DNA of 64,000 nt, taken from positions 1 to 64,000 of the forward strand of contig JAILKL010000120.1 of assembly GCA_024693775.1 (NCBI GenBank), given 5' to 3'. Below are positions 52,155 to 54,446 of the stretch, one piece after another. A program made the position numbers and the translations under genes. A model generated the notes under the pieces. It saw nothing but the letters and a program-made list of their open reading frames with translations. It did not search any database and had not been told where the DNA came from. The first letter of the stretch is position 1. Each line of letters starts with the position of its first letter. Origin of the DNA: Pseudobutyrivibrio sp. Lineage in GTDB: Bacteria > Bacillota > Clostridia > Lachnospirales > Lachnospiraceae.

Positions 52155-53366
52155 ATGGGCAATGTAATCGTCGCACAGTCAGGCGGACCTACTGTGGCAA
52201 TTAATGCCAGTCTCGCTGGCGTCATCGAGGGAGCTCTTCGTTCTAATTACGATAAAATATATGGCTCCATCAACGGCATCCTAGGAATCAAGGATGATAA
52301 TATCATTGATTTATCAGAAATTGCAAATTCTGATTCTACATTTCTACAGAAACTAAAAACAACTCCAGCCATGTATCTTGGCTCATGTCGCTTCAAGCTT
52401 CCTAGTGCTGATTCCGGCGACCCTGTATATAATACATTATTCCAACAGTTTTCTAAATATAATATTGATGCATTTTTCTATATCGGTGGAAACGACTCCA
52501 TGGACACAGTAGACAAGCTCTCAGCTTACGCTAAATCCATAGACTCACACATTCGCTTTATAGGCATCCCAAAAACAATCGACAACGATTTATGCATAAC
52601 TGACCACACACCAGGTTTTGGCTCTGCAGCAAAATACATTGCCACCACCACAATGGAAGTCATTTATGATGCCCTTATATACAACTCACCTAGTGTCACA
52701 ATCATCGAGGTAATGGGACGTGACGCAGGCTGGCTTACAGCAGCCACATCTCTTGCAAGAAATGAATACTGCTGTGGACCAGACCTCATTTACCTACCAG
52801 AGACACCATTCAACACAGAGCTCTTCATAGCAGACCTATCTCGTCTTCTAAAAGAAAAGACAAACATAGTTGTAGCCGTATCTGAAGGCATCCGAGACGC
52901 CGCTGGAAAATACATTTCAGCATCCACAGGCACCCTAGACAACTTCGGACACGCACAGCTTTCAGGTGCAGGCAAAACTCTCGAATACCTAGTCAAGGAT
53001 CGTCTCGGCGTAAAGGTACGTTCAATAGAAGTAAACGTACTCCAACGTGCAGCCGCACATTGCGCCAGCCTAACCGACCAAAACGAATCCGTAGAGCAAG
53101 GTCGTCATGGTGTAGCCTTCGCAGAACAAGGTGTAACAGGTGCCATGGTCATCCTAAAACGTACCAGCAACGCACCATACACCGTAGAATACAGCTACGC
53201 ACACATCCACGACATCGCCAACGAAGCCAAGGAAGTCCCACAAAACTGGATCAACGAATCCCACAATTGGATAACCCAGGAAATGCTCGACTACCTACAG
53301 CCTCTCGTCCTCGGCGAACCCGACCTCACCTACAAAAACGGACTTCCCGTTTACGTACGCAGATAA
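52155..53366 (+). CDS. pfp: 6-phosphofructokinase, probably pyrophosphate-dependent
   Basis: 403 aa; YIGGNDSMDT and IPKTIDNDL (Lys in place of the Gly of ATP-PFKs), GRDAGWL. Confidence 0.9.
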   Translation: MGNVIVAQSGGPTVAINASLAGVIEGALRSNYDKIYGSINGILGIKDDNIIDLSEIANSDSTFLQKLKTTPAMYLGSCRFKLPSADSGDPVYNTLFQQFSKYNIDAFFYIGGNDSMDTVDKLSAYAKSIDSHIRFIGIPKTIDNDLCITDHTPGFGSAAKYIATTTMEVIYDALIYNSPSVTIIEVMGRDAGWLTAATSLARNEYCCGPDLIYLPETPFNTELFIADLSRLLKEKTNIVVAVSEGIRDAAGKYISASTGTLDNFGHAQLSGAGKTLEYLVKDRLGVKVRSIEVNVLQRAAAHCASLTDQNESVEQGRHGVAFAEQGVTGAMVILKRTSNAPYTVEYSYAHIHDIANEAKEVPQNWINESHNWITQEMLDYLQPLVLGEPDLTYKNGLPVYVRR

Positions 53367-53370
53367 CCAA

Positions 53371-53397
53371 AACCACCGGCTCGTCCGGTGGTTTTTT
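53371..53397 (+). terminator. pfp terminator
   Basis: AACCACCGGctcgtCCGGTGGTTTTTT. Confidence 0.9.
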
Positions 53398-53401
53398 ATT
53401 G

Positions 53402-53979
53402 CCCTCCTGCCGCCGCCCCTGCCCCCTGGCTCTGACGGTCTCAAAAACTCTCAAAGAATTAGAATTATCTAAATGGGCAATCGAGCAAGTCTATACACAG
53501 TTGTTCTTCTGACGGTTTTACAATTCTGGCAGGACTGTTCGTACTAAGCAGACATTCTCAATCTATATCAAGAAACTTCAACAAGGTATGTCCCACACAG
53601 GCTCTTGATTTTAAGTGGAGCTCTAGAAGCACAGAAGTGAATTACATAGCCAACTGGCATGCCGAGCCATGGACGGCGAGGCAAATGCCAGCTGAACATG
53701 GACGTGAATCTGGCATGGTGCCAGTTGGCTAAGTAATTTAATTCGTCTTGCTTCTTGTGCTACACGACCAATGAAAGAGCCTGTGTGGGACATACCTTGT
53801 TGAAAATTCTAGAGAATAACTATAAATGTCTGCTTAATGCGTACAGTCCTTTCGAATAGTAAAACGCGGCAGAAGTACACCTGCACATACTCGATTTTGC
53901 CCATTAAGATAATTCATAATTCTTCTCGAATTGTTTTTGAGACCGTCAGAACCAGGAGGCAGGGGCGGCGGCAGGAGGG
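53402..53979. repeat. Giant imperfect foldback (~578 bp), candidate giant structured ncRNA or foldback mobile element
   Basis: Arms align end to end; perfect blocks include ccctcctgccgccgcccctgcc/ggcaggggcggcggcaggaggg and 30-bp ttcaacaaggtatgtcccacacaggctctt (53577-53606) vs its complement (53775-53804); apex agccaactggca (53648-53659)/tgccagttggct (53719-53730). Confidence 0.92.
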
Positions 53980-53990
53980 GGACTACATAA

Positions 53991-54023
53991 AAAAAAGAGC
54001 CTCCGATTTTGGAAGCTCTTTTT
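53991..54023 (-). terminator. atp operon terminator
   Basis: AAAAAGAGCcTCC gattt tGGAaGCTCTTTTT. Confidence 0.82.
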
Positions 54024-54032
54024 GTTTTTGGG

Positions 54033-54446
54033 TTATTTGCTGTAATGTGCACCCTTTAGTCTGGCCATTGCTCGTGCTATGTTTGCGTTAGAAATTTCGT
54101 ATTCTACTCTACTTTGTTTCTGCTGCAACTGCTCCTGAGCACGTTCAAGTGCTTCTTGTGCACGGAATGTATCAATGTCCTCTGGACGTTCGCAAGAGTA
54201 TGTTACAACCTTTACGGAACCATCTGGATAAACTGTGATAAGTCCATCTGCGATTACTGCGTATTGCCATTCACCGTCAGGCTTTTTGAATCGGATGTTT
54301 CCGATGTCTACAACACCAGTAAAGGTTTCGTGATGATTCATGATTGCCATCTCTCCATCCAAGGCTGGAAATATTAATGATTCGCAATCTCCATCGTAAA
54401 AGACACCATCACAGGCTATTATTTTTAAATTAAATAATGATGCCAT
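54033..54446 (-). CDS. atpC: F1Fo ATP synthase epsilon subunit
   Basis: 137 aa; LKIIACDGVFYDGDCESLIFPALDGEMAIMNHHE; operon position. Confidence 0.93.
   Translation of the reverse strand: MASLFNLKIIACDGVFYDGDCESLIFPALDGEMAIMNHHETFTGVVDIGNIRFKKPDGEWQYAVIADGLITVYPDGSVKVVTYSCERPEDIDTFRAQEALERAQEQLQQKQSRVEYEISNANIARAMARLKGAHYSK

Follow-up and report, generated by a model that had tools for sequence, protein, structure and literature searches.

A 578-bp foldback between pfp and atpC of a rumen Pseudobutyrivibrio, probably an old mobile-element copy with a TwoAYGGAY apex

Introduction

Between the convergent pfp and atpC genes of a rumen Pseudobutyrivibrio, a 578-bp sequence folds back on itself. 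An earlier note on the 64,000-nucleotide stretch of DNA analysed here (the window) recognized no known RNA class in this sequence and considered that it could be a giant rod-like ncRNA, a dsRNA source or a foldback (MITE-like) element. The locus raises two questions: what kind of element this is, and what keeps its long arms complementary.

Results

Anatomy and location of the foldback

The coordinates and anatomy in the earlier note were right (Table 1). Folding of positions 53402–53979 gave −335.7 kcal/mol on the + strand, compared with −155 ± 6 for shuffled sequences (z −29.6), and −350.8 kcal/mol on the − strand (z −31.0). The GC-rich closing stem opens with CCCTCCTGCCGCCGCCCCTGCC (53402–53423, 22 bp), whose reverse complement forms the right end of the element (to 53979). 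The 30-bp perfect block (53577–53606 with 53775–53804) is an exact inverted repeat. As had been described, the element is placed between terminators, with the pfp stop/terminator (approximately 53371–53397) on one side and a terminator-like hairpin (53992–54023) on the other. Because pfp and atpC were not adjacent in the relatives read, no empty site was shown at this position. The pfp–atpC junction (53366–54033) is not conserved in these relatives, and the element thus marks a synteny breakpoint.

Table 1. Features of the pfp–atpC region in the window
Feature	Positions	Strand	Basis
pfp, 6-phosphofructokinase, convergent with atpC	52155–53366	+	403-aa ORF; relatives in named Pseudobutyrivibrio genomes
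Entire foldback, an old copy without canonical tips	53402–53979		z approximately −30 on both strands; approximately 35 relatives dispersed through the genome
Closing stem, left half, locus-specific, GC-rich	53402–53444	+	Outside the shared core; complementary to the right end
Conserved core, left arm, with perfect block 53577–53606	53445–53623	+	Common to copies in the genome and genus
Apex with the TwoAYGGAY RNA motif (RF01731) and two CAUGGACG hairpin loops	53624–53753	+	55.7 bits
Conserved core, right arm, with perfect block 53775–53804	53754–53936	+	Inverted repeat of 53445–53623
Closing stem, right half, locus-specific, GC-rich	53937–53979	+	Inverted repeat of 53402–53444
atpC, ATP synthase epsilon subunit	54033–54446	−	137-aa ORF adjoining the beta-subunit ORF

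The foldback belongs to a dispersed family

The Rfam and genome searches that the earlier note had proposed were both positive, the former for the apex and the latter for multiple copies; neither feature could be seen in the window by itself. Analysis by cmscan assigned the apical domain on the + strand to TwoAYGGAY (55.7 bits, E 1.8e-6; gathering score 43), so the view that no known RNA class is present was wrong for this part of the element. Other Rfam matches, including mir-4662, were rejected; they scored far under their gathering scores, as expected of any hairpin. The foldback core was found at about 35 distinct dispersed places in the window genome, many of them lying, as repeats are expected to, at the ends of contigs. 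Most copies matched the window element only from query base 42–44 or so onward, which leaves the closing stem outside the common core. A fresh local inverted duplication was ruled out because the core is common to copies genome-wide, and a plasmid or phage source was rejected for want of any match. A literature search for MITEs in Butyrivibrio or Pseudobutyrivibrio found nothing.

TwoAYGGAY was present in 27 of the 29 genus members, with 49 matches in one genome. Across the class it occurred in 28 of the 293 genomes sampled, mostly as several copies in each. Within the genus, nearly all complete copies were the centres of giant foldbacks of approximately 570–850 bp; foldbacks of other genera and families mostly measured 200–350 bp. 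In the window genome, the outer arms of four copies (L002, L007, L009 and L012) appear to be swapped between copies, which appears to reflect recombination or contig misassembly.

Young copies carry tips common to an IS4-type element

Young copies were bounded by the 14-bp tips GTTACYATTCACAG/CTGTGAATRGTAAC, and many copies in strain MD2005 (G021) by GTTACCATTCACAG...CTGTGAATGGTAAC. In some copies (L151, L166), the terminal tips had changed on both arms together. Exact 8-bp direct repeats abutted 3 of the 28 two-tipped elements (L172, L179 and L181), and repeats matching at 7 of 8 positions were found at another three (L242 and L245/L246, of which L245 and L246 are the same site in different species), compared with 0 of 756 in a control with mismatched pairing. 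Most tip-bearing copies showed no visible target duplication. In the window copy, neither a canonical tip nor a target duplication was found, and this copy is therefore old or altered.

The same 14-bp tips and a 7/8 duplication bound a 1748-bp element in another genome of the family (L287, G384), which encodes an IS4 transposase (NF033592, 167.8 bits, cut-off 115). A 1710-bp relative with the same tips occurs in Pseudobutyrivibrio G003 (L306), together with a second copy that is 99.6% identical (L301); the aligned transposase frame of the G003 copies contains in-frame stops. No close homologue of the IS4 transposase was found in the window's own genome, which is 82% complete. From the common ends, on which the IS4 link is based, we infer that an IS4 transposase would move the foldback in trans. 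The option of a foldback (MITE-like) element was thus supported by the many dispersed copies, the terminal inverted repeats, the 8-bp duplications and the IS4-family element with the same ends.

Two other mobile sequences were found. A separate MITE of approximately 190 bp with the same GTTACTATTCAC tips as the foldbacks (L230–L234, L238–L240 and L242–L244) occurs in G009, a genome in which no TwoAYGGAY was found. On contig 197 of G005, an IS110-family transposase gene lies between both tips of a 752-type foldback (L276, 4829–6055), probably as the result of IS110 insertion into the hairpin. IS110 was ruled out as the mobiliser, since its copy (L229/L276) interrupts the element and looks like a secondary insertion.

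The arms covary without the mispair balance of an RNA

Covariation was measured in an alignment of 26 cores with 125 consensus pairs. Two-sided changes were found at 106 of the 125 pairs (0 of 500 shuffles), with a covariation score of 0.614 compared with 0.187 for shuffled and approximately 0.1 for slid partners. Standard changes were two-sided in 776 cases versus one-sided in 58. The arms thus covary, as the earlier note had proposed to examine, but the G-U excess typical of RNA was absent. Mispairs tallied over 115 unique foldback elements comprised 593 G-U versus 658 A-C, and G-A versus C-T was balanced too (678 versus 639), whereas RNase P RNA gave 320 G-U versus 6 A-C in the same genomes by the same measure. 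Structural RNAs tolerate G-U but not A-C. The near equality of the two in the arms therefore means that selection on a single RNA strand is not what maintains the pairing, and long-RNA selection does not explain the arms. With arm matching arising from a DNA process, base-pair covariation alone is no proof of RNA here.

The neighbouring genes of 100 copies were convergent in 31 cases, divergent in 9, tandem in sense orientation in 26 and tandem in antisense orientation in 34; no strand is preferred, and promoter regions are avoided. The window element contains one promoter-like match, which is the number expected by chance.

The closing stem is hypervariable, and the core is inverted at several orthologous sites

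The closing stem (42 nt) and the adjacent core were compared among 29 copies of one genome, G021. The closing stem had a GC content of 64%, with an identity of 0.54 between copies and of 0.82 from arm to arm within a copy, the latter value being too low because the arms had been cut with a register offset of a few bases; in alignments, closing stems were near-perfect within a copy and nearly unrelated between copies. The adjacent core had a GC content of 31% and identities of 0.71 from arm to arm within a copy and 0.88 between copies. The GC richness of the closing stem would be accounted for by GC-biased repair.

Copies from different species were treated as orthologous when both flanks matched. 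When the two members of a base pair had both changed, 88 of 135 core cases and 37 of 58 outer cases still obeyed Watson-Crick pairing, against a chance expectation of one third; the comparisons have species in common, so that p-values are indicative. The core was inverted relative to its flanks at about 6 of 13 independent orthologous sites between species, with at least one fragmented assembly involved in every inversion. Misassembly is a less likely but possible cause of these inversions because the longest perfect stem in the elements concerned is 42 bp or less, which is under usual assembly word sizes. The flanks diverged more than the apex and core in several close pairs of orthologs (for L048/L072, flank 0.113, core 0.017 and apex 0.007), which was not so in distant pairs.

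Template switching during replication has been reported to homogenize inverted-repeat arms and to invert spacers (PMC8604942), and to generate and preserve hairpin stems (PMC8794818). As the simplest single mechanism, it best explains both the arm matching and the core inversion. Core mismatches persist, which indicates that the copying of arms is incomplete.

The apical hairpins look strand-specific

TwoAYGGAY was described in a comparative screen in 2010 from human gut, gamma-Proteobacteria and Clostridiales sources, and was tabulated there as 'probably' RNA and 'probably not' cis-regulatory (PMC2864571). In the apical helices, + strand mispairs were 20 G.A/A.G versus 0 C.T and 9 G-U versus 0 A-C, and only these hairpins look strand-specific, unlike the arms. 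The GGA[CT] hexaloop of the first apical hairpin was kept in 114 of 115 copies, a figure that is biased upward in that copies were partly found by the GGA[CT] sequence. The second apical loop was variable. The apical hairpin may thus be read as a single strand, either RNA or DNA.

CsrA binding of TwoAYGGAY was later proposed from motif matches (PMC4333381), which raises the possibility that the apical hairpins alone act as RNA, a mobile CsrA decoy for which the foldback would be the carrier. This would add to a foldback-transposon explanation and not exclude it. The conserved first loop, the asymmetric apical helices and the presence of csrA in all 29 genus genomes are consistent with such a role, but many copies lack GGA in the second loop, no promoter beyond chance was found in the window element, csrA is present also in G009 and G026, in which TwoAYGGAY was not found, and the apical asymmetry fits folded single-stranded DNA as well. 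We regard a CsrA decoy as attractive but tentative, and as more likely wrong than right. As csrA is universal in the genus, it was ruled out as an explanation of the TwoAYGGAY distribution. On contig 1 of G021, a TwoAYGGAY copy (L223, approximately 1042–1201) lies directly downstream of csrA and ahead of flagellar genes.

Discussion

The window element is probably an old copy of a non-autonomous foldback (MITE-like) transposon, the arms of which are kept complementary by DNA-level copying from arm to arm. In the mechanism we propose, an IS4 transposase acting in trans would insert the foldback at new sites, after which one arm would be copied onto the other, most likely through replication template switching in the hairpin, and the same process would invert the intervening segment. 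The outer closing stem would drift fast and become GC-rich while staying near-perfect, and the inner core would retain its sequence and fixed mismatches. The apical TwoAYGGAY hairpins, conserved strand-specifically, may function either as RNA or as single-stranded DNA in folded form.

The arms could instead be kept paired by selection on the DNA for a hairpin or cruciform, which might for instance serve as the substrate of recombination or transposition, rather than by selection-free arm copying. The strand-symmetric mispairs, the GC-rich near-perfect closing stem and the lower divergence of the core than of the flanks in several close ortholog pairs would agree with such selection. However, arm copying alone predicts both the symmetry and the inversion, the closing stem changes too quickly to be used sequence-specifically, and we know of no protein that needs it; this explanation is rather unlikely. 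Also rather unlikely is a reading in which these mobile foldbacks form a bacterial class that carries a conserved regulatory hairpin (TwoAYGGAY, which may be a CsrA decoy) throughout the genome, with the two arms continuously rewriting and inverting one another. A giant rod-like structured RNA, one of the options in the earlier note, with transcription of the entire hairpin and pairing maintained by selection on the RNA, is very improbable, because the very stable fold, the compensatory changes and the Rfam motif at the apex are outweighed by the lack of a G-U excess, the ratio of two-sided to one-sided changes, the random orientation to flanking genes, the cores inverted at several sites and promoter-like matches at chance level.

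Judged from its sequence, the element is of a known kind (MITE/foldback with IS4-type ends) with unusually clear evidence for DNA-driven arm covariation. Like MITEs mobilised by IS4-family elements, the foldbacks of this family are short, non-coding and multi-copy, with 14-bp terminal inverted repeats as in the IS4 element and 8-bp duplications at some copies. They differ from such MITEs in that nearly the whole 570–850 bp is a foldback with an Rfam RNA motif inside, that the GC-rich closing stem is hypervariable, and that the core is inverted between species at some sites. Eukaryotic Foldback elements likewise consist mostly of long inverted repeats, but their arms are tandem modules, whereas the present elements are bacterial and have IS4-type ends and irregular arms. 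The apex resembles TwoAYGGAY RNA in its GGAY loops and its score above the gathering score; Rfam describes that family with 168 positions and the type Cis-reg, whereas the present motif caps a mobile foldback oriented randomly to genes. Quasipalindromes corrected by template switching show the same arm homogenization and spacer inversion (PMC8604942), but the foldbacks are much larger (approximately 500 bp between closing stems) and occupy dozens of sites per genome.

These results provide a genomic carrier for TwoAYGGAY, an Rfam family without known function. They also serve as a warning that extreme covariation can come from DNA processes, and the ratio of G-U to A-C mispairs, which separates RNA from DNA cases, may be applicable to other candidate RNAs. 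With dozens of independent palindromes per genome, arm-to-arm copying and inversion become measurable in natural bacteria; self-rewriting mobile foldbacks, if this reading is true, would be a natural record of replication template switching.

In a genome of another genus of the same family (G233, L262–L267), short TwoAYGGAY foldbacks likewise had a conserved core inside locus-specific GC-rich closing stems. In a genome of another family (G091, L249–L256), TwoAYGGAY copies had longer common flanks and different ends, which suggests a second, independent mobile carrier of TwoAYGGAY.
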